Positions 2,460-37,169 of a stretch of 64,000 bases of DNA are shown in pieces. Position 1 is the stretch's first letter; every line of letters begins with the position of its first letter. Below the pieces are notes generated by a model. The model did no database searches. It worked only from the letters and a program-made list of their open reading frames with translations, and was not told the origin of the DNA. The position numbers and the translations under genes are program-made. The stretch spans positions 1,345,001 to 1,409,000 of the forward strand of contig NZ_CP106679.1 of the NCBI RefSeq assembly GCF_025502585.1, written 5' to 3'. Origin of the DNA: Reichenbachiella agarivorans. Its GTDB lineage: Bacteria > Bacteroidota > Bacteroidia > Cytophagales > Cyclobacteriaceae.

Positions 2460-3683
2460 ATGAAAATCTTCTGCCTCTTTTTGATTTTAGCACTAGGATA
2501 TCACCTGGCGCATGCTCAAGTAGAAGACAGCACACAAAGTACTAAGAATCAAAAAAAGATATCAATCATTCCTTTGCCTGCCATCGCTTCTAACCCAACC
2601 AATGGCTGGATGTTTGGCGTAGCACCAGGTGCTAGCTGGTACATGGGAGACAAAGAGACGACTCACATCTCATCAGGCTTGGGCACACTTATCTACACCA
2701 CCAAAAAACAATGGATTATCACCGCCAAAACAAATATGTTCTTGGCTAATGACAGTTGGAACCTCCTCGGAGATTGGCGCTATTTCATCACTTCACAACC
2801 GACATACGGATTAGGTACAGAGTCTCAATCAAAGAAAAACAAGGGAACAGGAGTAATTTTCGAAGACAATACCTTTAGTCAACCTATCCCCGATAAGCAA
2901 ATGATGGATTTTGACTATTTACGATTTCATGAAACCGTACTCAAGCGCTACCACCAAACACCATTCTACTTTGGATTAGGCTATCATCTCGACTACCATC
3001 ACGAAATCAACGATCGCTTACTTGATTTGGATACAATTCCTCCCTTGCTCACCAGTCATTACATTTATTCAGAAAAAACGGGGTTTTCAAATACTGAGTA
3101 TATCCTATCAGGCATCAGTATCAATTCCTTGTATGACAGTCGAGACAATTCCATCAATCCCTATCACGGCAGGTATGCCTTTGTAAATGTCAGAATGAAT
3201 CCTACATTTCTAGGAAGTGACCAGGCATCTAGCCTACTATGGGCGGAATACCGCGACTACCTCAACCTGAGTAAAAAAAGACCCCGACACATGTTGGCAT
3301 TTTGGGCCTATGGTTGGTTTGTGACTTCAGGCAATGTGCCCTATCTCGATCTACCTGCGGTAGGTTGGGATCAATTTGGCAGATCTGGTCGTGCATACAC
3401 GCAAGGCAGATTCAGAGGAGAAAATGTAGTCTATGCAGAGACTGAGTACCGCGTACCATTGCAAAAAACCAAAGATACCTTTGGAGCTGTGGCCTTCATC
3501 AATGCCACCACAGCGAGTAGCCGATACGATGACATAAACCTATTCGAGCATCTCAGTCTTGGATATGGTGCAGGTCTACGTGTCATGATCAACAAAAAAT
3601 CAAGAGCTAATCTCAATATTGACGTGGCATGGGGAGAAGGTGGTGCTGCAGGTTTTTATTTTGGAATAAATGAAGCATTTTAG
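2460..3683 (+). CDS. BamA/TamA-like outer-membrane surface antigen protein
   Basis: A 407-residue protein with signal peptide MKIFCLFLILALGYHLAHAQ. After the signal comes a short linker and then a barrel. The start (PLPAIASNPTNGWMFGVAPG) and the segments DSRDNSINPYHGRYAFVNVR and RGENVVYAETEYRVPL match the conserved barrel blocks of the bacterial surface antigen (D15) domain: D-R-D-N-P followed by the Arg-Gly loop and E-R strand. No POTRA domains are visible, so this is a barrel-only member, shorter than BamA (about 800 residues) or TamA (about 580). Such proteins are integral to the outer membrane; the cargo is unknown. The gene ends 5 bases before the next start, which suggests an operon with the secreted protein that follows. 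Confidence 0.75.
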   Translation: MKIFCLFLILALGYHLAHAQVEDSTQSTKNQKKISIIPLPAIASNPTNGWMFGVAPGASWYMGDKETTHISSGLGTLIYTTKKQWIITAKTNMFLANDSWNLLGDWRYFITSQPTYGLGTESQSKKNKGTGVIFEDNTFSQPIPDKQMMDFDYLRFHETVLKRYHQTPFYFGLGYHLDYHHEINDRLLDLDTIPPLLTSHYIYSEKTGFSNTEYILSGISINSLYDSRDNSINPYHGRYAFVNVRMNPTFLGSDQASSLLWAEYRDYLNLSKKRPRHMLAFWAYGWFVTSGNVPYLDLPAVGWDQFGRSGRAYTQGRFRGENVVYAETEYRVPLQKTKDTFGAVAFINATTASSRYDDINLFEHLSLGYGAGLRVMINKKSRANLNIDVAWGEGGAAGFYFGINEAF

Positions 3684-4689: not shown

Positions 4690-7224
4690 ATGACAGAAGC
4701 ACTACCTACCTCTTTGGACAAACTATTCTCGCAAGGCCAAGAGGTATTTTGCAAAAAAGGTGATGTTCTCAAAAAGCAATTTAGTCGTGTGGACAGGTTC
4801 TACATTTTGCTAGAGGGCACCGTGCACTTTCATCAAAGCCTGCACAGCAACGACAGAGAACTGTTGGCAGGGATGAGCCAATCTCTTTACGCACCGATTG
4901 GCATGGATGCTTTCATCGCACCCTACAGGAATGAAACTACGGCGAGAGTCGCATCAGACACTGCTAGACTTATCAAATGGGAAACGGAGCAGTTAATCAA
5001 ATGTCTCGATGCAGATATTCATCTAGCGATAGATTTTTTTACTTTCCTCAACAATCACTCACACCGCTTCGTCGAGGATACCAGCGAGTTATTTGCCAAT
5101 ACCTCTGCAGCTTTACAAACACTCAATACAGACTCTTCCTCGGACGGCTATCTCGCGCACATCGATCGAGACGAAATAGACAAAGTTATCTTGCTGTTGC
5201 AATCTCCATTTTTTGAAGAGTTTGATGAGAAGGATTTGGCCGTACTCGCCAGCTCTATGCAACGTCGAGAATACTTGGTCAATGAAATTGTCATCAGCCA
5301 AGATGAGAAAAAAAAGGGGATATTCTTACTAGAATCTGGTGAAGTTCAATACTCTCGCATGAACTTCAGCATAGAAACCAACAAAACCTACAAAGTACCA
5401 TTTAGGTCTATTTCTACTCCAGGCTACTTACTGAGTTCGTCTAGCCTACTCGGAATCAAAAGTGCCATGACCTCTCATGTCACCAAAGAGGCCGTCGTAC
5501 TATATATCCCTAAGGAGACATTGGAAAAACACTGCAAAGAACATCCTAACTTTGCACTCAGCTTCCAAAAAAGAATCCTCTGGTTGATCAACAATCAGCT
5601 CAGAGCTGTGCGTACCCGACTCATCGCCACGCAATTCAACGAAGAGCTACTGGTAGCCAGTACACTCATCAGTAGCAACAGCACGAAACTGTCTGTACAC
5701 TCTCCCTTGCACGCTGTGCCAGTCTTGCTCGAAGACAAACTAACCATACCACAGGCCATAGAGGTGCTTCACAAGGTAGAACTAACTGGAATAGGCCCTG
5801 AAAAAAACCTAGCCTCCCTATGTTTGGACAATCTCCACAAGACACAACGAGAATCCAATTTCTACCGTGCCTTGCAAGACATCTATAGCAGTGTCGCTGA
5901 AAATACCGAAGAAAAAACCAACGATGAAGTTCAGTTGGACTGTATCAAGGCCAGTAAGAAAGCATTTTCTATCCCGTCGATATATATCAAAGGACTGGAA
6001 TACATGCCTAATCAACCAGGGTGTATTTTCATCTACAATCATCTGCTCAACGAACCCTATTACACCTTGCCCAATCAATTTCAAATCACATTGGACTCAC
6101 ACTACCTGAGCGCATTGGTGTATGAAAACTATGGTGCACATGCCCAAAGGGTAGTCAGAATTGGAAAATCAGATGAGTATGCCCACGAAAACTACTACAA
6201 CAAGCTAGGTTTTATCAGTGTGTACACCAACGATTCGGATGAACTGATTGAAACAGAAGAAGAAAGAAAATCAAGACACCAGGTATTCTATGATCAAATC
6301 AAAGACGCCATATTGTCTGGCAAGAACATCATCATCAGTCCAGAAGGAAGTTCACATCCAACTGAGCATTCACCGAGCAAATTCAAATCTGGGATTTTTA
6401 AGGTCATACAACAACTAGAAGTACAACCCCTGATTGTACCCATTGTTATGGCCAACTTTGACAAGCGCATCACAGCGTACAAATTTGCCTGTGAGATCAA
6501 AAAACCTTTTAGGTTGAATGAGAAAATGAAAGAGCTCGGCACGAGCGACATCAAAGAGTTCCTGAGAAAATACCAGTTAAAGTTCAGGCAAGACACGCAA
6601 GAACTCACAGACAATATCGCCAACGAAAACAGTGCACAGCTTCTGTTTCAAGATGAAATTGATGCCTTAAAAGAAAAAGTCACAAAACTTCCACCAAATG
6701 ATACAGTTGCCTTTTATGGCAGTAGTACCATCCGACTATGGGAAAGCTTGGAAGGAGATTTGGCTGATAAAAAGGCTGTCAATTTGGGCTTTGGTGGATC
6801 TTCTTACCAATGGTGTTTGTTCTATTTTGAACGCCTATTCGAAAATTTTCTGCCTAAATCCTATGTACTCTATGGAGGTGACAATGACTTGAGCATCGGA
6901 CAGTCACCCTCTGATGTACTGATGAATTTTTCGCTCTTATATGAAAAAATCAAACGTCACAGTCCACATGCGCCTATTACCGTGATCTCTATCAAACCTA
7001 GCCCAAGTAGAGAATATTTGCTGCCAAAGATTATCCAGACCAACGAACTGTTGAGAACCTTTGTGGATGAACATGACAACATGCATTGGATCGAAATATT
7101 TGAACACATGCTGTCCCCAGATGGAAGACCCAAAACAGATTTATTTGTGGAAGACATGCTTCACCTCAATCTAAAGGGGTACAAAATCTGGAAACAACAA
7201 GTTAGAGAGCAATTGATCGTATGA
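4690..7224 (+). CDS. Fusion: two cNMP-binding domains, PlsC-like acyltransferase, SGNH hydrolase
   Basis: An 844-residue cytoplasmic protein with no signal peptide or clear membrane span. Residues 15-130 and 175-300 are two Crp/cyclic-nucleotide-binding-like folds (GDVLKKQ...FYILLEGTV; VISQDEKKKGIFLLESGEV). Residues 430-620 look like a glycerolipid acyltransferase (PlsC-like): the first block reads YNHLLNEPYY at 449 and the third reads SPEGSSHP at 550. In the usual HX4D motif the Asp position is Pro here, so catalysis is uncertain. Residues 670-844 are an SGNH hydrolase with all four blocks: GSS (Ser679), NLGFGG (Gly702), GGDND (Asn732) and DMLH (Asp822, His825). The expected role is phospholipid or lysophospholipid remodelling gated by a small ligand; this is inference. 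The gene stands alone, with a 143-base upstream gap and a convergent neighbour. Confidence 0.8.
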   Translation: MTEALPTSLDKLFSQGQEVFCKKGDVLKKQFSRVDRFYILLEGTVHFHQSLHSNDRELLAGMSQSLYAPIGMDAFIAPYRNETTARVASDTARLIKWETEQLIKCLDADIHLAIDFFTFLNNHSHRFVEDTSELFANTSAALQTLNTDSSSDGYLAHIDRDEIDKVILLLQSPFFEEFDEKDLAVLASSMQRREYLVNEIVISQDEKKKGIFLLESGEVQYSRMNFSIETNKTYKVPFRSISTPGYLLSSSSLLGIKSAMTSHVTKEAVVLYIPKETLEKHCKEHPNFALSFQKRILWLINNQLRAVRTRLIATQFNEELLVASTLISSNSTKLSVHSPLHAVPVLLEDKLTIPQAIEVLHKVELTGIGPEKNLASLCLDNLHKTQRESNFYRALQDIYSSVAENTEEKTNDEVQLDCIKASKKAFSIPSIYIKGLEYMPNQPGCIFIYNHLLNEPYYTLPNQFQITLDSHYLSALVYENYGAHAQRVVRIGKSDEYAHENYYNKLGFISVYTNDSDELIETEEERKSRHQVFYDQIKDAILSGKNIIISPEGSSHPTEHSPSKFKSGIFKVIQQLEVQPLIVPIVMANFDKRITAYKFACEIKKPFRLNEKMKELGTSDIKEFLRKYQLKFRQDTQELTDNIANENSAQLLFQDEIDALKEKVTKLPPNDTVAFYGSSTIRLWESLEGDLADKKAVNLGFGGSSYQWCLFYFERLFENFLPKSYVLYGGDNDLSIGQSPSDVLMNFSLLYEKIKRHSPHAPITVISIKPSPSREYLLPKIIQTNELLRTFVDEHDNMHWIEIFEHMLSPDGRPKTDLFVEDMLHLNLKGYKIWKQQVREQLIV

Positions 7225-17357: not shown

Positions 17358-20300
17358 TTAAAAGAAAAAACCAAAATCAAAGGAGATCAAATCCTCCTCT
17401 GGTGAAAAGGCATAAGACAGAGCCATCGAGAATTTGCTCAATGGTGCGACCCACACACCAGCCCCTAAAGCACTGTGCCATTTGTTAGAATCCTCTGAGC
17501 CGACCCAAACCCGTCCTACATCATAGAAACCATGTACTCCAAATTTTCCTGGAAACAGGAAGGAAGAAAAATCCTTCAATTTGATGCGTAGATCTGTGTT
17601 TTGATAAAATGAAGTCCTGCCATAAAATCTAGTTCGTCTAAAACCCCGCAAATTGGTTCGTCCTCCCAACGTATTGGCATTGTAAAACTCACCATTGACA
17701 AACTGTCCAAAATTATGCGCATAGCCTGTGCGAGACGCCAAAGTCACAATGGCTGGATAGCTGAAGCTATAATACAGACCTAGCGAGGTGTGAAAATGTG
17801 CATAGTCAGTGGTATTGTCATTCAATCCAGCAAATGCTGTGTAGTTGGTCTCAAAAAGCAGTCCTCTGGTAGGAAACATCTTTTCGTCGCGGGTATCGAA
17901 TTCTACCTGAGCATAGGCACCTGAATAGAACCTTTGGTCGTCAAACAAATCACTCGTATCAAACTCGTCGAAATCTGGCGAATCGATGTAAGTATTGTCG
18001 TTTTCATCCACACGTACCGTTCTGTTGATACTCCCCACGGTGAAGAGTCCCGAGTTTCCTAGTTCTCTGGTCAAAGCAACCCGTAGGATGTCATCCTTGA
18101 TTCTGGTGCGGTAATAATCAATGCCTTCGTCCAAATCATAAACTGATTCATTGCCGATTCCGAAGAAATTATTGACCACAGGTTGACTAAGTTCCAATTG
18201 TGTAAATACATTCCACTTGCCCAACACATCCATATAGTTGCCTTTATAGTTGACATTAAAGGCACCAGTCGCCACTGCTACATCCGCCATCAGCAAATGC
18301 TTGGATGCATAAGGCTCGCGCCTCCAAGCATGTCTCGTGTATTGATACCCAACCCCCACAAATACCCCATCGTCTGGGTTGAATGAGCCATAAATGATCG
18401 GCACCAACAAGTCGTATTCGTAACTATATCTATTGTAGTCATTGATGTCGCTTCTATCGCTCAATTTGGATTTGAAAGACTGCTGATCAGTTTTCAGATT
18501 TGTAGATTTCCTGTCATAGATGAGTACATTTTTGGCAGCATGATGCGTCGTCTCATCGTAAATCTCATCCTTACCTTTGCCACCGATGACTCTGACTTTT
18601 ATCGCAGAGTGCACCTCTCCTGATATCTTGATCTCATCATCCGAGTCAAAAGCATAGATTCGCACTTCCTTGGTATCATCATTTGTGAACGTCCTGTCGT
18701 ATATGACTTGCTCTACTTCTTCCTTTTTGGAGATTTTGTGAATCGTCACTTTAACCCTATCCTTGTCCAGATTTTGAATCAAAATGAGTTCTTTCTTGTC
18801 CGAACAGAGAATCTCTACTTCCTTAGCGAGACTCTCGTAAAACTCCATGCCATAGTCGCCGAGATTGTCACGGCGCGCTTTCAAGACATCAATCGTCCGT
18901 TGACCTGACGCTGCAAATACATTCTCTGGCCATATGTGAATAGCATCCTCAATCACCTCATCCGTCAGACTATCTTGTACTACTTTGATCATGTCTTCCC
19001 AATCCGCTCTGTCCAAACTCGTCAAATAAAAGCGATCCAAATGTCTGGAATTGAAATTGAACCCTGGTGCCCATTTCATCTCAGGATTGAACCCTTCGAT
19101 TTTGGGCATCCCCCATTTACTACTTGCCAATTTGGGCAAAATACCATCATTGATGAAAAATACTTGGTCTCTATCTCTTGGAATCGCTTTGTAGGTTTTT
19201 CCTTTTCCACTTTCACTGTCATAAGACGCCCATCTCCATTGATCCTCGTGTCTATCCCAATCCCCGATAATCATGTCAAACATCCGATTTCTCAACAGAA
19301 AATCCTCGTCCACTCGGTTGTCATTGTCGTCCCTGAGAGCCTCAAAAAGATCGGGGGAACCGATGATTTCAGAAGAATTACCAAAGAACTTAGCCTCAGA
19401 CCAATCATCATTTGGACGCTCTTCGAATAGTGCTAAGTGGTTGGCAAACATCTCTCTATACTGCCCAAATGCTCCATCATCTGGTACATAGACTAATCGT
19501 GGATTGGTGTGATAGATCCCAAGTGCGTCCGCCATCGGAGGTACTACATAGGCTGCATAGGGATGGCTGGCACTGATCTGATCTTGGACTACATTCTCGG
19601 CTAGCGTTGCCTTCAACATTCGCGGCAAAGCTCTATCGGCGTATTTCTCCACCGAGCGTAGCGAATATTGTTTTCCATCCTCCGCCTCCAGTCTCAAAGA
19701 ACTTGTTTGCATACCACCGCCCTTTTTGATTATTTCCAAGCCTCCCTTTTCTGTGGATAGATTAAATACGGGTGCTTCGACCTCCATCTCCCAAACATCA
19801 CGATAGTTATCTCCCATCCATTTTCTTTTTCCTTTGGACGCAATGTACAAAGTCGATGCTTGTGCTTTCTTTGTTTCTCTTTCGCCTGTGTAGACAGGTA
19901 TTTTGTCATATCCATCATCTATGAACCGAAAATCATACAATCGCTTTTCATAGATTTTTTCTCCTGTTGGCGCTTCTTCATCGACAGCCCAAAATTCCAA
20001 ATCAGCTTGACCTTGAGGGGAATAATTCACCTTGCCAAACCCAATTCTGGATCGCCCAAACTCTAAATACTTTCCGTTTTCTTTGAGATAAGTAGCTTTA
20101 GACCCTGAGCCACTCACTACATAGTTCACACTATCCTTGATGATATGCTCCAGCGCATGCTCGTGACCCGATACATAGATGGTGTTCGAGTAATTTTTGA
20201 GCAGGGACTCAAGGGCATTTTTGATCGCCTGATACTCTGGATGAGGTATATCTTGGAGTGAACCAGCTGTGGCGCGATAGCTTGGATACAATGACCCAAT

Positions 20301-21032
20301 CAGAGGTAGCGGAATGTACAAATTTTCGTTGAGTTCTGTGAGGGGAAACAGATGTTCCTTGGCAGAAAAATGTCCTCCGTGTGGCCCATAGCTGTACAGT
20401 GGATGGTGCGAAGTAAGAATCACATGGTCGTTCTTGTGCTTCTCTAGCAGTGTAGCAATATCTGCCACAATGTCCAGAGGTTCGTTGTAATTGAGCGGAT
20501 CATCTAGCAAAGGTTTGTTGTACCGATGCAACATCCACTGCATATCAAACACTATCAAATATACACCTTTGTCCAGCTTGATTTCTTCTGGTCCTGGAAA
20601 GCCATCTTTGGGATAGAACACCTTTTTACTATCAAAATAATCTTTGACGAATTTGGTCTGCTCATGTACATGTTGCCAGCCCTTGCGATGCGAGTTGTCC
20701 CAATCGTGATTGCCTGGGATCACTATGGTTCTCCCTTTGAACTTTTGAGTAATCTCAAATTGCTCTGTGAGTTTGGCTTCCTGTTCCTGTCGCCTAGGAT
20801 GATCTTTGGGAGGAAGTCCATCTGTGTAGATATTGTCTCCTAAAAAAATAAGTGTCGCGTCCTTACCAGCTGCCTCCAATTGCCCTTTTAGAACTTTGAG
20901 ATTGGGCCTTGCTCTCGAAGGCTCGCCAGCATCTCCTATGAGGAAAATAGTGTGATTGGAATCAGGTTGGTTTTGTCCATACAAATGGACAGAAAGCAGC
21001 AGAAATAAAACAACTAGATATCGTTTCATCAT
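17358..21032 (-). CDS. Metallophosphoesterase with kinase-like middle segment and BamA-like outer-membrane barrel
   Basis: A 1224-residue protein with signal peptide MMKRYLVVLFLLLSVHLYGQ. Residues 25-330 form a calcineurin-like phosphoesterase with all metal motifs: GDAGE (33), GDNIYTDG (65), GNHDW (107), SHHPLYSYG (208) and GHEH (289). Residues 440-720 resemble an atypical kinase fold: GKQYSLRSVEK near 453, then GDWDRHEDQ at 590-598 and PRDRDQVFF at 618. These recall the catalytic DRHxxN/Q and metal-binding Asp of the HipA/Fam20/CotH/PI3-kinase group; this is inference. A short GGKGKDE repeat-like patch lies near 817. From about 870 to the end there is a D15-type barrel (FDTRDEKMFPTRG, LRGFRRTRF) that would anchor it in the outer membrane. 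It overlaps the next gene upstream by 4 bases (ATGA), so they are translationally coupled. Confidence 0.85.
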   Translation of the reverse strand: MMKRYLVVLFLLLSVHLYGQNQPDSNHTIFLIGDAGEPSRARPNLKVLKGQLEAAGKDATLIFLGDNIYTDGLPPKDHPRRQEQEAKLTEQFEITQKFKGRTIVIPGNHDWDNSHRKGWQHVHEQTKFVKDYFDSKKVFYPKDGFPGPEEIKLDKGVYLIVFDMQWMLHRYNKPLLDDPLNYNEPLDIVADIATLLEKHKNDHVILTSHHPLYSYGPHGGHFSAKEHLFPLTELNENLYIPLPLIGSLYPSYRATAGSLQDIPHPEYQAIKNALESLLKNYSNTIYVSGHEHALEHIIKDSVNYVVSGSGSKATYLKENGKYLEFGRSRIGFGKVNYSPQGQADLEFWAVDEEAPTGEKIYEKRLYDFRFIDDGYDKIPVYTGERETKKAQASTLYIASKGKRKWMGDNYRDVWEMEVEAPVFNLSTEKGGLEIIKKGGGMQTSSLRLEAEDGKQYSLRSVEKYADRALPRMLKATLAENVVQDQISASHPYAAYVVPPMADALGIYHTNPRLVYVPDDGAFGQYREMFANHLALFEERPNDDWSEAKFFGNSSEIIGSPDLFEALRDDNDNRVDEDFLLRNRMFDMIIGDWDRHEDQWRWASYDSESGKGKTYKAIPRDRDQVFFINDGILPKLASSKWGMPKIEGFNPEMKWAPGFNFNSRHLDRFYLTSLDRADWEDMIKVVQDSLTDEVIEDAIHIWPENVFAASGQRTIDVLKARRDNLGDYGMEFYESLAKEVEILCSDKKELILIQNLDKDRVKVTIHKISKKEEVEQVIYDRTFTNDDTKEVRIYAFDSDDEIKISGEVHSAIKVRVIGGKGKDEIYDETTHHAAKNVLIYDRKSTNLKTDQQSFKSKLSDRSDINDYNRYSYEYDLLVPIIYGSFNPDDGVFVGVGYQYTRHAWRREPYASKHLLMADVAVATGAFNVNYKGNYMDVLGKWNVFTQLELSQPVVNNFFGIGNESVYDLDEGIDYYRTRIKDDILRVALTRELGNSGLFTVGSINRTVRVDENDNTYIDSPDFDEFDTSDLFDDQRFYSGAYAQVEFDTRDEKMFPTRGLLFETNYTAFAGLNDNTTDYAHFHTSLGLYYSFSYPAIVTLASRTGYAHNFGQFVNGEFYNANTLGGRTNLRGFRRTRFYGRTSFYQNTDLRIKLKDFSSFLFPGKFGVHGFYDVGRVWVGSEDSNKWHSALGAGVWVAPLSKFSMALSYAFSPEEDLISFDFGFFF

Positions 21033-21919
21033 TTCATTTTGAATTTGAGAATATATCCTCTGTCACCTTGTCCCTCATTGGAGATGAATAAGTCTCCATT
21101 TGGAGCAAAGCAGATTCCTTCGGGTTGACCAAACAGGCGAGGATCCAAGGGCACGCTTCCTACGATTTGGTACTGCCGATTGACCATCAGGAGCAATTTG
21201 CCTGTCGAGGCAATAATATAAAAAATGTCTTGCGTAGGATGCAGTGCAATACCAGAAGGCATAAAATTCAGCCTATTTTCATCATACTCAAAATCAACTT
21301 GAGACTCCAGATACTTTTTGATATCGGAGCTGGTGATTGTAAAGGTAGGTCGAGGATCAATCTCCCTTTTGTTAAGGTCAAAACTGTAAAAGGCTCTGCC
21401 CTTTACATCCCTATCCTTCAAGTCCCCACTTTCCTTGCAAGCAATGATCAACTTACCAGTTTTAGAATCATACGCCAAGCCTTCGACATCATTTTTCTTT
21501 TTGAGATCGGTATTCATCTTGATGCTTTTCTTGCCCTCATCATTTGCCAGAAACTTGTAAAGATCGCCATTGCTCTCTGCCACATAGATAGAGTCACCCA
21601 CGACCTGTATGCCTTCATAATCACCTCCATCGGCGAATCTGACTTCTCTGATTAGTTTTCTTTCTTTGTGATCATAAAAGAAAACCTTACCATCCTCATC
21701 TTGCACACAAACGAGTATGCCATCGTCCAAATAAGACAATCCCGAAACTTCCTCTAGGACATAAGGTAAATAATATTTTGAGGTAGGGTTCTTGAAATCA
21801 TAGGTTTTGAGATGATCCGGAACGTGGTGAAATAATGCTTCGGCGGTTTTTCTCGAATCGCCATTACAACTGATCAATGAGCAGGTCAATAAGAAAATGA
21901 AGATGTACTGTTTATCCAT
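21029..21919 (-). CDS. SdiA-regulated-type (YjiK) lipoprotein
   Basis: A 296-residue lipoprotein: the signal ends in the lipobox LISC (MDKQYIFIFLLTCSLISCNG). The mature chain is a six-bladed propeller of the SdiA-regulated family. Blade repeats are visible as EVSGLSYLDDGILVCVQDED, GGDYEGIQVVGDSIYVAESNG, NDVEGLAYDSKTGKLIIACKE, PSGIALHPTQDIFYIIASTG and QPEGICFAPNGDLFISNEG. The family is related to esterase-like phytase propellers; its function is unsettled. Its stop overlaps the start of the phosphoesterase-barrel gene (ATGA), so the two products are made together and probably work at the envelope on a shared phosphorylated or surface substrate (inference). Confidence 0.82.
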   Translation of the reverse strand: MDKQYIFIFLLTCSLISCNGDSRKTAEALFHHVPDHLKTYDFKNPTSKYYLPYVLEEVSGLSYLDDGILVCVQDEDGKVFFYDHKERKLIREVRFADGGDYEGIQVVGDSIYVAESNGDLYKFLANDEGKKSIKMNTDLKKKNDVEGLAYDSKTGKLIIACKESGDLKDRDVKGRAFYSFDLNKREIDPRPTFTITSSDIKKYLESQVDFEYDENRLNFMPSGIALHPTQDIFYIIASTGKLLLMVNRQYQIVGSVPLDPRLFGQPEGICFAPNGDLFISNEGQGDRGYILKFKMK

Positions 21920-22011: not shown

Positions 22012-23229
22012 GTGGATACTGAAATCATATCTAAAATTAGTGCTTATGTGCGAGATACCTTCCAAGGTAGCCTCCCAGAACATTGCCATTATCACAACTT
22101 GACACATACCGAAGAGGTCGTGACAGCTGTGTCTGTCATCGCTATGGCGGAGCAACTGCCGCACGAAGAAATCGAAATAGTCACCATTGCGGCTTGGTTT
22201 CACGATCTAGGTCATGTACAAGGCAGCCAAAACCATGAGGAAAAAAGCATCAAACTGGCTATCGAAAAGCTGAAGGAACTAGAATATCCACAAGAAAAAA
22301 TAGAGCAAGTGGCTGACTGTATCCGTGCCACGAGAATGCCTCAAAGCCCGAAATCCAAAATGGAAGAAATTCTGTGCGATGCGGATTTGCACCACTTGTC
22401 CACGCCTCGTTTTCAAGAAAAATCCGAAATGTTGATGACAGAACTTTCCCAAGTTACTGGCATATATATTGAAAAAAATGAGTGGTACAAAAAGACCTAT
22501 CAGTTCGTAAAAGAGCACAAGTATTTTACAAAGTATGCCAAGCAAAATCTAGAATCTGTAAAACAGGAAAACCTAAGACGGTTGGAAGAAAAAATACAAA
22601 AGGAGAAGAAGTCAAAGGAAGACAAGCTCAAAAAGAAAATTTATGACTTAGAGGAAAAACTAGCCAAGGCAAAGAGCAAGGAATCCATACCGACCCGTGG
22701 GATTGAGACCATGTTTAGAACCACGTCTAGGAATCATCTCGACCTCAGCTCGATTGCTGATCAAAAGTCAAACATCATGATATCCGTCAATTCGATCATT
22801 TTGTCGATTGTGGTGACTGTTCTCCTTCGCAAACTTGAAGAGTACCCTCACTTCATGATCCCAACCTTGATTTTGACTATCGCTTGTTTATCTACTATTG
22901 TTCTCAGTATTTTGGCTACCAGACCCAACGTCTCCAAGGGCAAATTCACCAAAGACGACATCATTCACAAAAAAGCGAATCTGCTTTTCTTCGGTAATTT
23001 TCACCAGATGAGTTTGGAAGAATATGAATGGGGCATGAATGAACTGATGAACGACAGTCAATATCTCTACGGCAGCCTCACCAAAGACATCTACTACCTA
23101 GGCAAGGTGTTGGGCAAAAAATACCGTATGCTCAGAATCGCCTATACAGTATTCATGTTTGGTTTTGTGATTGCCATTATTTCCTTTATCATCGCAGAGG
23201 CTTTTTTCAAGAGTCACTATATGTACTAA
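22012..23229 (+). CDS. HD-domain protein with Pycsar-effector-type membrane module (DUF5706)
   Basis: A 405-residue protein. Start is GTG at 22012, which leaves the whole HD domain in frame. Residues 20-170 are an HD phosphohydrolase with ligands readable as H28/H32 (YHNLTH), H64-D65 (WFHDLGH) and D123-D125 (CDADLHHL). Residues 175-225 are a Lys/Glu-rich coiled coil. Residues 228-400 match the DUF5706 (Pycsar effector PycTM) module: DLSSIADQKSNIMISVNSII leads into two membrane segments (about 257-274 and 281-301), then NLLFFGNFHQMSLEEY, and a last membrane segment (about 376-397). In Pycsar defence, PycTM-type proteins answer cCMP/cUMP; no uridylate/cytidylate cyclase is next to it here. The PhnD-like lipoprotein gene follows after 18 bases, so the two are co-transcribed. 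Confidence 0.82.
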   Translation: MDTEIISKISAYVRDTFQGSLPEHCHYHNLTHTEEVVTAVSVIAMAEQLPHEEIEIVTIAAWFHDLGHVQGSQNHEEKSIKLAIEKLKELEYPQEKIEQVADCIRATRMPQSPKSKMEEILCDADLHHLSTPRFQEKSEMLMTELSQVTGIYIEKNEWYKKTYQFVKEHKYFTKYAKQNLESVKQENLRRLEEKIQKEKKSKEDKLKKKIYDLEEKLAKAKSKESIPTRGIETMFRTTSRNHLDLSSIADQKSNIMISVNSIILSIVVTVLLRKLEEYPHFMIPTLILTIACLSTIVLSILATRPNVSKGKFTKDDIIHKKANLLFFGNFHQMSLEEYEWGMNELMNDSQYLYGSLTKDIYYLGKVLGKKYRMLRIAYTVFMFGFVIAIISFIIAEAFFKSHYMY

Positions 23230-32195: not shown

Positions 32196-35100
32196 TTAAA
32201 ACCCATCATCCTCGTCTTCCTTTTTCGGTGCGGGTGTAGTTTCTTCTAGTACTTCTTCAAAAGTATCAGCAGCCTCATCTTCTGTGGTTTTTTCTTCCGT
32301 TGATTCTTCGATGGTTTGATAGGCATCCTCCTGTTGTACTTCCAGATGTGCATCGTCTGGGAACTCTAGATTGTAGTCATCACCAATGTTGTAGTATTTT
32401 CTTCTAAATCCATTGATAAAACCAGTCACTTCAAACTCATCCCCAATCACGGTGGTGTAGTCCCCAAAGCCTGCCTTTGACACACTAGAATGCTCAACCA
32501 CCAGGTTGTTGAAATGATCATTGGACGAATACATCATCAATCGACCGTGCTCGTAACTAAAGAAGTACCAAGTAGAAGGTGCCAACTGGAAAAACAAATT
32601 GACAACATCTCCACCATCCTCATCCTTTTTGATTTCCAAAAATCCCTCTGCCTTGGCATTGATATCAGCAGTTTTAAAATTGGAAATTCCTATTTTCGAA
32701 CTGTTGTACCAAGCTCTATGTTCATCAGACCACACCATATCTACATTGGAGATTAGAATGCTCTTGTTAAATACCTCTGAGATGCTGTACAAAGGTTTGT
32801 AGTCTACCATCAAAACTGTTTCATAATCCTTTACCAGTTTATCCCCAGCTAGATTGGACAATTTCACCATCAAATCAAAACTGTTGTCATGAGCCAAATC
32901 GGGACCCAATCGCTCGATGATGTCTTTCACATCCCCAGTCATTGTACTCATGATTTCCTTGTGCAGCTCCATGTTAATCCCAATTGTCGCATCCATCGCA
33001 TAATAATTGGAATCTGGCTTGCCAACGCCCAAAACAGAACTTGTCAAACTATACTTAGGCTTGTTTTCAATCAAACTAAGAGGCCCATCAAAAGAAAGCT
33101 CTCCTGTCCTATCATTGTACACAAAAGACTTACCCGAATAGCCTCCAGGTGTTCTTCTATTGGGTTGTTCGATACGAAATTCTTGTTTTTTCTGATCATA
33201 CGAGAGAATACCTTCCGCCTTGAAGAAGTAGTCATCATCTGGGTTATTTCTCTCTCTGACATAGGCCATATACAAGTCAGAAGAGTTTTCCTCACGCATG
33301 ATACCTGCGGTGACAGCTGTACCGTCTTCTGCTTTTGATTCGGCCAAATTCAGTTCTACATCTACCAAATCACCTGGCGTTTTGAAGCTGATCCAGTAAT
33401 CGTATCTACCCAAACTTTGGACATCAAGACTCACATAACCTTCTTTGGCCAATGCTCGCTTGTCAGCGTACATTGTCACGTCTCCTTTGTAATAGAAACC
33501 AGGTGAGATACGGATATTTTGTTCCTCGGTGATCACTCCTCCAGATACTGTCATGGAATCAATCTTATTGTTTCGTTTGACGCCTTTCAGATCAAACCTT
33601 TCAAATTTGATTGAGAAAGTATCAGACGCAGAGTTGACCAATTGATAGGTTGCGCTACCTATAAATTTCTTTCTCGATACGACGGTTAGATTACCATCAT
33701 ACAAATTGTGGTATTGGTTGAGGGTATCGATTTTCAATTTGGCATTGTTGAATGGCTGCAAAACTGAATTCTCAAAGATCGTCGTTTCGTTGTTGTCAGG
33801 TATAATCTCAGCGTCTGCGACACGGATGTGCGGTATTCCTTTGATATTCAAATCGTAGGTCTTCATATTGTATATCGCCTCCGTAGCACTGAAAACCAAT
33901 GAGTCAAGATCCTTTCTTGTCGTATAGAAATAGGAATGCTCTATGTCTATATAATCAGGTTTTGACATCACAATCTTCGCAGAGTCCAAGTACCAAACAG
34001 CATCTGGTATCGATGTTTTCATCTGTGCATAAGGGAAACTGATTGCAGCTACACCTTGCTTCTCGGGGTGTACTTTGGCGATGTTTTCTACCAAATCAAA
34101 ATGAACGTCCATATCCTTTCCCGTCATGGCTGGTTTTTTAGGATTATCCGTCAAGATTTCAAAAGAAGCATGTCGTCCAAAATATTCATATTGGCTGAAT
34201 TGAAACTCCTGTGATTCAGACCTAGAACCTCTCGTTAGCATTTCCCCTGATCCATAAACCCCCTTCAAAGTGATATTAGCCTTCCCGTCCAGCGAAGCTG
34301 TAGAATTATAGAACTGAAAAGGTGCTTTTGTATTTTCTATATACATACTGTCCTTGAGGGGTCTCCAGAGCATTTTGAAATCCGCCAAGATTGCTTCTGG
34401 ATAGGAGGCTTCTTCCACCTGTCCTTCTCGAATCAATCCCTCTTGACCTACTGCAGATACAGAATCCATATAGAACACAAAATCGTTGGAGTACACAGTC
34501 GCTGTTCTAAAATCAATTCGTCCTGATGCCCTTATTCCTCTAGCATTCAGGGTCAAACTACCATACAATCGACCTTCTCCCTTGTACAGAGGGTAACCTT
34601 CTTCAGGGATTTCATGTTCAAAACCCAAAGATTGATCAGGCATAATCATCAACCTCTCCTTGACTGGAGGAAGAATCCCTCCTGAATAAAAATCACCCAT
34701 GAAACCAATGGCAGAGGCTTCTCCTCTGTTGCTACTGTCCATCTCAAACGGAGGGACAATGAAATATACTGATCTATCATATGCCCCGTGAAGTATATCC
34801 TTTTTGTCAAAATAGACAACCGCCTCAGAATCAGATATAAAATAAGGATACTGAGTATATCTCCTTAGTCCTGCTTTGTTTTTAGGATGATTGATAAACA
34901 ATGTCCCTGAAGTCAACTCAAGATGGTTGCTCAATTGGGTCTTTTCAGAATCCTTCTTTTCATGAAAATTGACTTGAATCTTAATGGAATCGATATCTGG
35001 CATCTCTACGAGATACTCATTGTAATTCAAGCTTACGTCCTTTCCATGGTAACGATAATCTCCCGCATTGACCATTCCGTTAAATTTCATTCCCTTGTCT

Positions 35101-37169
35101 CTGGTCAAACTCAATATACTACTGTCTGGCTCGATAAATACTTCAGTGTCTGGTGTGATGTACACCCTTCTTACACCACGAACAGTCATTTCACCCTCAT
35201 CAAAATTCAGCGTGGCATTTGGCCCTCCCTGTGGTGCTACCGAACTGATCAAAAAATTGTCATAATCCTTTTTCTTGTTGTTGGCCATCTCGTAGTGATA
35301 TGCCTTTCTCAATACTTGTATCTGTCCAGAAGCCTTGTCGTAAGTGATGTATTGATTCTGTTCCAAATATACCGCCGCAGCCTCCGCCAATTTCAAATCC
35401 AAATTGTAGGCATCAACCAGCTCCAGTACATTGAATTTTGAATCTTGTATCTTCCTAGAATACAGCACGACCAGTTTGATCGGATGAAAACCAAAGAGAC
35501 CCGTCATCTTTTTGTAACGAATTGGGTTGAAATATTCTTCGGATTCGAAAAGCGCAGGAATACGATTGGGAGCATTGAGAATTGATACGTCCAGCGCACT
35601 AGAATCGGGATTCCACTCCACCATATCGGCCTGAAATTCTATCTTGAAAAAAGAAGAATAATAATAAGTATGCTTATACCCACCATCATCCTGTACCAAA
35701 GTCAATTTGGGGATTCCCGCATCATAGGCCATCTCTACGACTGGATGATAAATCGAATCCGAGCCATGGTAGATCACCATGGATGTACGCTTGGCTCTAG
35801 TCAGTGAGTCTAAAAACTCATACTCTAGAGACTTGCTCACAAAACTGCGACGATTGGCTCCAGTCACCTCCAAGGTGGACAGGTCTCTAGAAATCGATCG
35901 TCCAAATTTGCGTGACCCTTTTAGAGCAAATCCTCCTACATACTTGATGTTCTTACCAGGTAGTTTTAGTTTGATGTCTGACTTTAAAGAGGTAAAACTC
36001 GGATATACCTTTTCTGCATTTTTGTTTCTTTTTCCACTTTTGAAATAAAATTGTCCCGGGACTGAACCATCGTACATTTCGGGAAATTTCATCTCTGCCC
36101 GTGTTGTCTTCAGCAAGGGTACATTCGTTTTGAATGCGTAAGCCTTCAAATCGACCACAGCACCTTCTGTTCCTTTCAAATCATCTGGCCAATCGATCGT
36201 CCCGCTTGTGCCTACAAACTCCTGTGATTTGAGTAAAAATGTTCCCGAAACATTTTTGATGGTAAGTGTATCGAATGGAGTCGCTATTTTAAACTCCATT
36301 CCCTCCAACTTGATAGCTGGCCCCCTCAGTACGGGGTTAAAATCATTGGATTGTGCCAGTGAGACCAAGTCTGGTTTATCAAAAGCGTAGAGCTTGCGCT
36401 CATAGTTGTCACCTTTTTTTGCCGAAGGAGCATCTTCTAAAAAGCCATCATCAGCAGCCGAGTCCCAAGATGAATCATCCGATCCCCAACCATCATCTGA
36501 GCCCCATCCGTCATCCGACCCCCAGCCATCATCTCTTCCCCAGTCGTCCGCAGCTGCCCATTCATCAGAACCAGATGCAGCAGGTGCCAATTCTTCCTCA
36601 GTGATAATGTCGCTGAGGACTTCGTCTTCATAATCCTCCTCCTCTTCGATAGGCAATGCTGCCTCTTCCATCAATTCTACGGTGAACTTGCCTCCAGTAC
36701 TCAAGACTTTGTTGTAATGCGAATGGTATATCGCCCCTTCGGCAAAAAAGTATGCCAGATTCTTGAAAACAGTGATGATCTCTGGTTTTTCATAGCGATC
36801 TGCTGCCTGATGACAGATGTCCAACACATTGGAAAATTGCTGATCTGTCAGACCCTCTTGTGTGTAGGCATGTGTAATCAAGCTAAAGAAAAGTGTGTAA
36901 TAGGGTTTGGTAGGCAATCTCCTATCATTCAGCTTGGTGCAAACTGAGATAATAGAACTCTTTTGGTTGCCATCGATTTTGGTATCCCAGATGTTCCTGA
37001 AATCATAGGCAATCTTTTCTGTTGTCTCTGTATTCAGAGACTTTAGATTGCGTATGACATCTATGGCAAAGCTATCTGGCTGAGTCGCAAACCCAAAATA
37101 TTGGGCTGTAGCCAGATGGGAGCCGAGTGTACATAACAGAACAAGAAATAAACACCTGTTTTTGAACAT
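32196..37169 (-). CDS. Large secreted protein with Asp/Gly/Trp/Ser repeat
   Basis: A 1657-residue protein with signal peptide MFKNRCLFLVLLCTLGSHLATAQ. I do not recognise the family; similar long proteins occur once per genome in Cytophagales. An acidic linker at residues 185-250 contains a tandem unit of six residues (DDGWGS, several copies in 206-230). The remaining ~1400 residues are long, regular beta-strand-rich stretches (for example GTFLLKSQEFVGTSGTIDW; KDVSLNYNEYLVEMPDID), which could be a beta-helix, or LptA/AsmA-like beta-taco fold; this is a guess. The C-terminal tail is acidic (EEVLEETTPAPKKEDEDD). It is transcribed toward the EF-hand gene. No catalytic motif was found. Confidence 0.6.
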   Translation of the reverse strand: MFKNRCLFLVLLCTLGSHLATAQYFGFATQPDSFAIDVIRNLKSLNTETTEKIAYDFRNIWDTKIDGNQKSSIISVCTKLNDRRLPTKPYYTLFFSLITHAYTQEGLTDQQFSNVLDICHQAADRYEKPEIITVFKNLAYFFAEGAIYHSHYNKVLSTGGKFTVELMEEAALPIEEEEDYEDEVLSDIITEEELAPAASGSDEWAAADDWGRDDGWGSDDGWGSDDGWGSDDSSWDSAADDGFLEDAPSAKKGDNYERKLYAFDKPDLVSLAQSNDFNPVLRGPAIKLEGMEFKIATPFDTLTIKNVSGTFLLKSQEFVGTSGTIDWPDDLKGTEGAVVDLKAYAFKTNVPLLKTTRAEMKFPEMYDGSVPGQFYFKSGKRNKNAEKVYPSFTSLKSDIKLKLPGKNIKYVGGFALKGSRKFGRSISRDLSTLEVTGANRRSFVSKSLEYEFLDSLTRAKRTSMVIYHGSDSIYHPVVEMAYDAGIPKLTLVQDDGGYKHTYYYSSFFKIEFQADMVEWNPDSSALDVSILNAPNRIPALFESEEYFNPIRYKKMTGLFGFHPIKLVVLYSRKIQDSKFNVLELVDAYNLDLKLAEAAAVYLEQNQYITYDKASGQIQVLRKAYHYEMANNKKKDYDNFLISSVAPQGGPNATLNFDEGEMTVRGVRRVYITPDTEVFIEPDSSILSLTRDKGMKFNGMVNAGDYRYHGKDVSLNYNEYLVEMPDIDSIKIQVNFHEKKDSEKTQLSNHLELTSGTLFINHPKNKAGLRRYTQYPYFISDSEAVVYFDKKDILHGAYDRSVYFIVPPFEMDSSNRGEASAIGFMGDFYSGGILPPVKERLMIMPDQSLGFEHEIPEEGYPLYKGEGRLYGSLTLNARGIRASGRIDFRTATVYSNDFVFYMDSVSAVGQEGLIREGQVEEASYPEAILADFKMLWRPLKDSMYIENTKAPFQFYNSTASLDGKANITLKGVYGSGEMLTRGSRSESQEFQFSQYEYFGRHASFEILTDNPKKPAMTGKDMDVHFDLVENIAKVHPEKQGVAAISFPYAQMKTSIPDAVWYLDSAKIVMSKPDYIDIEHSYFYTTRKDLDSLVFSATEAIYNMKTYDLNIKGIPHIRVADAEIIPDNNETTIFENSVLQPFNNAKLKIDTLNQYHNLYDGNLTVVSRKKFIGSATYQLVNSASDTFSIKFERFDLKGVKRNNKIDSMTVSGGVITEEQNIRISPGFYYKGDVTMYADKRALAKEGYVSLDVQSLGRYDYWISFKTPGDLVDVELNLAESKAEDGTAVTAGIMREENSSDLYMAYVRERNNPDDDYFFKAEGILSYDQKKQEFRIEQPNRRTPGGYSGKSFVYNDRTGELSFDGPLSLIENKPKYSLTSSVLGVGKPDSNYYAMDATIGINMELHKEIMSTMTGDVKDIIERLGPDLAHDNSFDLMVKLSNLAGDKLVKDYETVLMVDYKPLYSISEVFNKSILISNVDMVWSDEHRAWYNSSKIGISNFKTADINAKAEGFLEIKKDEDGGDVVNLFFQLAPSTWYFFSYEHGRLMMYSSNDHFNNLVVEHSSVSKAGFGDYTTVIGDEFEVTGFINGFRRKYYNIGDDYNLEFPDDAHLEVQQEDAYQTIEESTEEKTTEDEAADTFEEVLEETTPAPKKEDEDDGF
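36481..36552 (-). repeat. Four 18-bp tandem units encoding the DDGWGS repeat
   Basis: Four consecutive 18-base units (36481-36498, 36499-36516, 36517-36534, 36535-36552) share the core CCCCA-n-C-n2-TC and encode the six-residue repeat of the large secreted protein. Copies are not identical at third positions, so they have diverged. Slippage could change repeat number. Confidence 0.8.

Follow-up and report, generated by a model that had tools for sequence, protein, structure and literature searches.

We analysed a gene of Reichenbachiella agarivorans whose product is predicted to join a phosphatase, a kinase fold and an outer-membrane barrel in one polypeptide. The gene lies on contig NZ_CP106679.1 within a stretch of 64,000 nucleotides (positions 1,345,001 to 1,409,000), which is called the window below and to which all feature coordinates refer. 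An initial annotation, made from the sequence alone, had noted phosphoesterase motifs, a kinase-like segment and a C-terminal D15-type barrel, and had proposed that the protein both transfers and removes phosphate at the cell surface. The motifs, domains and reading frame that it described were confirmed. The phosphoesterase motifs GDAG, GDNIY, GNHD and GHEH begin at residues 33, 65, 107 and 289, respectively, and the mid-protein motifs GKQYSLRSVEK, GDWDRHEDQ and PRDRDQVFF occupy residues 453-463, 590-598 and 618-626. Pfam and the predicted structure together gave the order signal peptide, purple-acid-phosphatase-type domain, kinase fold, beta linker and Omp85 barrel, with the following features:

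17358..21032, minus strand: whole gene of 1224 amino acids, a single unbroken frame that runs from 21032 down to 17358
20973..21032, minus strand: putative Sec signal peptide, residues 1-20 (hydrophobic start, KD hydrophobicity 3.36)
19923..20969, minus strand: purple acid phosphatase-type domain, residues 22-370 (Pfam, phmmer and structure match)
18813..19775, minus strand: predicted kinase fold of the branch comprising phosphatidylinositol 4-kinase type II (PI4K-II), CotH, CtkA and HipA, residues ~420-740 (AlphaFold2, Foldseek, VIA and conservation); landmarks are the GGG loop 438-440, K463, D484, E537, GDWDRHEDQW 590-599 and PRDRDQ 618-623
18468..18821, minus strand: linker domain, mainly beta, residues ~738-855 (secondary structure of the model, by eye)
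17361..18410, minus strand: Omp85-type barrel, residues 875-1224 (Pfam and model; NLRGF lid-loop motif)

In the 1224-residue product, Pfam identified Metallophos at residues 28-292 (whole-protein E 1.8e-10) and Omp85 (PF01103) at residues 974-1210 (E 7.1e-11). None of the six Pfam families listed at E<=10 had its best stretch within residues 440-720, and NCBIfam returned for the whole protein an Omp85 match alone, which was below threshold. A search of the organism's own genome indicated a single copy, the sole further match being a short barrel stretch with an E value of 5e-4.

The N-terminal domain is, as judged from structural comparison, of the purple acid phosphatase type, i.e. a metallophosphoesterase fold with a ligand tyrosine, the hallmark of these enzymes. 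Residues 24-370 matched purple acid phosphatases with Z 30.3 over 266 residues at 2.6 A and 23% identity (pig enzyme), and phmmer found human tartrate-resistant acid phosphatase with a whole-sequence E value of 3.5e-6. Residues fitting all eight metal-ligand positions of the family are present (D34, D66, Y69, N108, H109, H210, H290 and H292). The domain thus resembles tartrate-resistant/purple acid phosphatase type 5 (7ov2, 2bq8) in fold (Z 30) and in its Tyr, Asp/Asn and His positions, and differs in that a kinase fold and a barrel follow it in the same chain.

The C-terminal part is, according to a near-whole-protein model (residues 22-1221, 37-sequence alignment, pLDDT 85.2, pTM 0.75), a barrel of the Omp85 superfamily of the BamA/TamA type. 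The model had 16 long strands in the region ~875-1221, counted by eye, and matched BamA and TamA with Z 24-26; together with the Pfam match, this bore out the D15-type barrel. For a POTRA domain there was no Pfam match, and a beta-alpha-alpha-beta-beta pattern was not apparent by eye in the linker, which was viewed only within the whole model. A second, short Omp85 protein of 407 amino acids is encoded in the same window (2460-3683, plus strand).

A predicted kinase fold in the middle domain

The middle domain was modelled separately with AlphaFold2 from a 45-sequence alignment (residues 395-765), which yielded a mean pLDDT of 92.8 and a pTM of 0.91. At E<=1e-3, Foldseek found ten matches in the PDB, and all ten were kinases: seven CtkA chains, of which the best reached 1.2e-5, Rio2, the bacterial Ser/Thr kinase 7vkc, and CotH. 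The Golgi casein kinase 4kqb was also listed, at an E value of 5.2e-3. The matches were re-aligned with a second aligner, VIA, which operates only on Foldseek's own list. The best values were obtained for PI4K-II beta (Z 14.9, 257 residues, 4.3 A) and CotH (Z 14.9, 255 residues, 4.0 A), followed by CtkA (Z 13.3, 224 residues, 4.3 A) and HipA (Z 11.4, 216 residues, 4.3 A). Every one of the 50 VIA matches listed is a kinase, where 3dnu, 3dnt and 4uwl, whose titles are silent, are presumed to be kinases in view of their residue ranges. Fam20C, which the initial annotation had named alongside HipA and CotH, was not among these 50, which excludes nothing. A two-lobed kinase fold for residues ~420-740 is therefore strongly supported by the predicted structure, and neither a non-kinase fold nor a lack of the conserved Lys and Asp, which would have spoken against it, was observed. 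Because the identity to the structural matches was low (7-16%), the relation to known kinases is one of fold and catalytic motif.

Conservation was quantified in 142 distinct homologous segments, including that of the window, with gaps counted. In the model, the GGG loop forms the turn that joins strands 1 and 2 of the N-lobe, and K463 directly follows strand 3. This residue is Lys in 134 of the 142 segments, D484 is Asp in 136 and E537 is Glu in 138. In the catalytic loop, D591 is retained in 139, D593 in 132 and R594 in 138 segments, and Q598 is Gln in 133 and Asn in 4. The two later aspartates D620 and D622 are found in 135 and 133 segments, respectively, and G630 in all 142. The five residues K463, D593, Q598, D620 and D622 were jointly unchanged in 125/142 sequences. 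The proposed kinase hallmarks, a Lys, the Asp of the DRH loop and a later metal-binding Asp, are hence conserved. A mere coincidence of motifs was ruled out by this conservation together with the agreeing predicted fold.

Sequence comparison alone would not have settled the relation to kinases. At E<=10, no Pfam model, including Fam20C (PF06702), matched the kinase domain of the window. Neither CotH (PF08757) nor HipA (PF07804) came above its cut-off: both models failed to match the domain of the window, and among 66 members CotH matched one (E 0.0047 at best) and HipA two (E 0.2 at best). NCBIfam at E<=0.1 had no match for this domain either. Besides the weak HipA_C and CotH matches, other members had scattered lone matches to curated families, mainly unrelated ones. 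A phage origin was unsupported, given that a PHROGs search of three members at E<=0.1 was empty. In four of five plasmid records with a match the product is called a "hypothetical protein", and the fifth has no annotated feature at that place.

The closest known kinases share the fold and, in the case of CtkA and CotH, parts of the catalytic motif. A HMMER profile search of the PDB aligned the DWDRHEDQW loop with the NFDRHNGNW loop of CtkA with a non-significant E value of 0.6, in third place behind chance-looking rows at 0.18 and 0.32. In a weak hhalign alignment with CotH (P 0.013), D593 and D620 fell on two aspartates that are invariant in 26/26 CotH sequences; D622 was aligned with a column that has Asp in 21/26. 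Both profile alignments, though weak, thus place the DRH loop in register with that of CtkA, and the WD loop and the DxD motif in register with those of CotH. CtkA of Helicobacter pylori (3akk, 3akl), the top Foldseek match, has an aligned D-R-H-x-x-N/Q-W loop, but its identity is 9-14%, it has Asn where Gln is found here, and the compared chain lacks a barrel and a phosphatase. The CotH spore-coat kinase (5jda, 5jd9) shares the fold (Z 14.9), and its WD loop and its IPxDxD metal motif are aligned with the domain of the window. It is unlike this domain, which has a DRH-x-x-Q loop, is probably exported and is fused to a phosphatase and a barrel, and has no Pfam CotH match. PI4K-II (9hhm, 5i0n), a eukaryotic lipid kinase, is alike in fold (Z 14.9 and 14.8) at 9-12% identity. 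The accessible part of a survey of Legionella kinases does not include the family of the window protein among those described (PMC9758233).

Architectures and loss of the two active sites

Of 296 sampled Bacteroidota genomes, 111 carried the kinase domain at E<=0.001; they represent 61 of 140 genera. Its distribution is patchy, and the genome of the window was the sole carrier among the eight of its family in this draw. In a second draw of one genome per genus for 41 genera of the family, 27 had a match to the whole protein; six of these were due to the barrel or a weak phosphatase only, so that 21 remained by eye.

We found 145 open reading frames (ORFs) in 131 of the 132 loci, a total that includes the gene of the window twice. 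According to the available room, 70 can accommodate a phosphatase and a barrel (phosphatase-kinase-barrel), 60 only a barrel (kinase-barrel) and 15 neither (kinase-only). Eight of the 60 kinase-barrel ORFs start at the edge of the locus, and their phosphatase may be cut off. At most 13 of the 15 kinase-only proteins stand alone, as the end of the locus truncates L103 and the ORF following that of L042 encodes its barrel. Two genomes that belong to the same genus (L119:341-4293 and L120:3129-7094) have three adjacent separate genes for kinase, phosphatase and barrel, of which the phosphatase and barrel genes of L119 were verified by Pfam. This arrangement speaks for a joint function of the three parts, although the two loci are close relatives and count as a single case. 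Three further arrangements were observed. In L042:4863-7448, kinase and barrel occupy two consecutive ORFs versus one in the relatives, perhaps because the frame is broken or the gene is split. In L116:2629-7648, three kinase-only genes adjoin in one genome. L057:1-7523 and L076:1-7493 carry adjoining pairs of phosphatase-kinase-barrel genes, with one ruined phosphatase site per pair.

In proteins with both domains, the phosphatase site was lost more often than the kinase site. Among 68 phosphatase-kinase-barrel proteins, 48 retained all eight ligands, 7 had lost one to three and 13 at least four. As the alignment was automatic, single losses may reflect misalignment, while losses of at least four are harder to explain in this way. 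Phosphatase and kinase alignments could be matched for 67 of these proteins. All five kinase residues were unchanged in 47/47 proteins with an intact phosphatase, in 7/7 with one to three losses and in 11/13 with a ruined site, the two exceptions reading KDNDD and KGNDD. The reverse pattern, an intact phosphatase with an altered kinase residue, was not found (0/47). By class, the five kinase residues were intact in 65/67 phosphatase-kinase-barrel, 48/60 kinase-barrel and 12/15 kinase-only proteins.

A tree of 131 kinase domains was calculated with a quick method that left 37 of 128 inner branches open. It required at least seven changes for the ruin of the phosphatase site and at least eight for the presence or absence of the phosphatase domain. 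Broken kinase residues (Asn being allowed for Gln) occurred in 10/131 rows with at least five changes, namely in seven kinase-barrel, two kinase-only and one phosphatase-kinase-barrel protein. A pseudokinase reading for the entire family was nevertheless rejected. From these patterns we infer that the core activity would be that of the kinase, with the phosphatase as an erasable partner. The proposal that the protein transfers and removes phosphate stood insofar as 48/68 proteins keep all phosphatase ligands, but it is not general, given that 13/68 have lost at least four of the eight and many relatives have no room for a phosphatase.

Neighbouring genes

Two genes flank the 5'-end of the gene in the window:

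21029..21919, minus strand: upstream lipoprotein, SdiA-regulated beta-propeller PF06977 (Pfam), sharing a four-base overlap, ATGA, with the gene start
22012..23229, plus strand: divergent neighbour with an HD domain and a PycTM (Pycsar effector) membrane domain (Pfam)

The upstream protein has a lipobox-like LISC near its start, as seen by eye. Translational coupling to a propeller lipoprotein, as claimed initially, agrees with the ATGA overlap and the match to the SdiA-regulated family. Neighbours were counted where the locus extends at least 1.5 kb beyond the gene. A lipoprotein lies directly upstream in 19/36 phosphatase-kinase-barrel loci versus 0/36 kinase-barrel loci, and an HD-PycTM-like ORF lies within 1.5 kb in 27/38 versus 1/39. 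This contrast between the classes is not general, because an SdiA-regulated gene directly precedes the kinase-barrel genes of L102 (left out of the counts owing to its short flank), L194 and L195, and likewise that of L196, where it was below the Pfam cut-off. L195 carries a PycTM gene as well.

Past the HD-PycTM gene, the window encodes a phosphonate-binding-type protein and a polyphosphate kinase. An ORF for the latter was found in 9/79 loci, whose flanks of at most 5 kb are often too short to reach it. The kinase-barrel genes of L193:4002-8886 and L194:5090-11549 have CotH genes and ORFs that weakly match Porin_O_P as neighbours, and PAP2 phosphatase genes are found near those of L194 and L197. 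These neighbours suggest phosphate or envelope metabolism, with no pathway proven.

Location and possible functions

The putative signal peptide would be cleaved before a glutamine (LYG|Q, assigned by eye). This fits the Q-rule for Bacteroidetes set out in the accessible part of its description (PMC5837995). Export was scanned using plain hydrophobicity (KD>=2.0, start within 60 residues) in the same way for the family and for HipA ORFs; this is a hydrophobicity measure and not a signal-peptide predictor. A hydrophobic N-terminus was present in 112/132 family members versus 0/30 HipA ORFs, and start limits of 40, 60 and 100 residues gave 102, 112 and 115 of the 132 versus 0/30. The values were 42/52 for kinase-barrel, 13/15 for kinase-only and 57/65 for phosphatase-bearing proteins. 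Inspection by eye showed that the kinase-only proteins have either a lipoprotein-like start or a basic N-terminus followed by a single hydrophobic segment, as in signal anchors. With hydrophobic N-termini in all three classes, the kinase domain seems to be exported in every architecture.

In Omp85 proteins, the POTRA domains sit in the periplasm. PlpD, a fusion of an enzyme with an Omp85 barrel that was formerly thought to export its enzyme, has its enzyme domain exclusively in the periplasm, according to the accessible part of the report (PMC11116518). PlpD is alike in placing an enzyme on the periplasmic side of the barrel, and unlike in that this enzyme is patatin-like and a homodimer (same source). 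The topology of the superfamily and PlpD make a periplasm-facing, outer-membrane-tethered protein the most likely picture. The claim that the barrel exports the enzymes to the cell surface was left unsupported, since both the PlpD precedent and the Omp85 orientation point to the periplasm.

In its domain content, the protein also corresponds to the 'Metallo' subfamily of Omp85 proteins of Heinz and Lithgow 2014 (PMC4104836), which, compared by its description in the available text, combines PF00149 with an Omp85 barrel lacking POTRA domains; Pfam found PF00149 and an Omp85 barrel in the window protein. That paper labels PF00149, the calcineurin-like phosphoesterase family, a metalloprotease, and the word "kinase" is found nowhere in its main text as available. 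Among titles and the beginnings of abstracts, with few subscription journals covered, none described an Omp85 or metallophosphoesterase protein that contains a kinase domain. The parts are individually of known kinds; within the reach of this literature, the exported kinase family and its joining to a purple acid phosphatase on a barrel seem to be new.

Taken together, we lean towards the view that the gene encodes a periplasm-facing phosphotransferase that is tethered to the outer membrane and has an erasable phosphatase partner. By analogy with PlpD, the barrel would mainly serve as an anchor, and both enzymes would face the periplasm. The kinase domain would use K463 to bind a nucleotide below the GGG loop 438-440, and D620 and D622, possibly also Q598, would hold a metal. 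D593 might then activate the hydroxyl of an envelope substrate, i.e. a protein, a lipid or lipopolysaccharide, and the phosphatase might take off the same or a related phosphate. The donor could be a nucleotide that reaches the periplasm or a phosphoryl donor other than ATP; that polyphosphate might serve, in view of the nearby polyphosphate kinase, is only a thought.

Several observations weigh against this view. The periplasm is not known to hold ATP, and the topology is inferred from the superfamily. The hhalign comparisons were weak (CotH: P 0.013, probability 3%; HipA: P 0.023, probability 2%), and CotH versus HipA gave P 0.00093. The metal position of the catalytic loop is Gln instead of Asn, which is usual but not universal in the branch of PI3/4K, CotH, CtkA and HipA, so the domain is classed as a kinase fold and not as a proven active kinase. 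In addition, departures from KDQDD occurred in 12/60 kinase-barrel and 3/15 kinase-only proteins. Among the former, L075 and L077 are cut by the locus and L124-L126 were matched over part of the domain; the remaining departures make some relatives look pseudokinase-like.

A more far-reaching version, which is possible but held tentatively, is a periplasmic write-and-erase system of the Bacteroidota. A new family of exported kinases, occurring as outer-membrane fusions, lipoproteins and membrane-anchored proteins, would use a donor other than cytoplasmic ATP to modify envelope substrates, and a purple acid phosphatase in the same polypeptide would reverse the modification. In animals, it is accepted that some kinases, such as Fam20C, act beyond the cytoplasm, but such enzymes are hardly known from Gram-negative envelopes, which are not expected to have an ATP pool. 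The absence of periplasmic ATP is the main difficulty and also the source of interest: if the proposal is true, a conserved periplasmic kinase site in 111/296 genomes would make the question of the phosphoryl donor directly testable. It would also provide a testable function for a sequence region without a family model.

Less likely, we think, is a kinase fold with another chemistry, such as the transfer of AMP, glutamyl or other groups, or a nucleotide-binding regulator of the phosphatase. Kinase-fold families with other chemistries or regulatory roles exist (SelO, SidJ, Fam20A), and the Gln at the position of the catalytic-loop Asn (133/142), the weak sequence likeness to known kinases and the lack of expected periplasmic ATP would all agree with such a role. 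Nevertheless, the Lys and both metal aspartates are retained as in active kinases, and a domain whose site outlives that of the phosphatase is not merely the regulator of the latter.

Phosphorus scavenging appears improbable. The phosphatase would strip phosphate from periplasmic organic phosphorus, and the kinase-fold domain would capture or sense nucleotides. In line with this idea, the window encodes a polyphosphate kinase and a phosphonate-binding-type protein, and some kinase-barrel relatives adjoin PAP2 genes, CotH genes or ORFs that weakly match Porin_O_P. It is at odds with a phosphatase that is ruined in 13/68 proteins and absent from the kinase-barrel class while the kinase site is mostly retained, and the polyphosphate kinase ORF was present in only 9/79 loci, albeit with short flanks.

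Very improbable is an outer-membrane assembly factor with a barrel that inserts or exports proteins under the control of the enzyme domains. For new Omp85 subfamilies, the accessible text of PMC4104836 names assembly as the most conservative assumption, and the BamA/TamA match (Z 24-26) would fit, but no POTRA domain is apparent, kinase domains exist without a fused barrel, and PlpD, as far as its report is accessible, is an Omp85 barrel put to another use (PMC11116518). Display of both enzymes outside the cell by the barrel, as once believed for PlpD, is hardly credible, because the PlpD enzyme domain is confined to the periplasm (PMC11116518, accessible part) and the starts of the kinase-only relatives, judged by eye as lipoprotein-like or basic and hydrophobic, fit anchoring without a barrel.

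Two further ORFs of the window were noted. One on the plus strand (4690-7224) combines cyclic-nucleotide-binding, acyltransferase and GDSL lipase domains in a single frame, and another on the minus strand (32196-37169) encodes 1657 amino acids with no Pfam match at E<=0.001.

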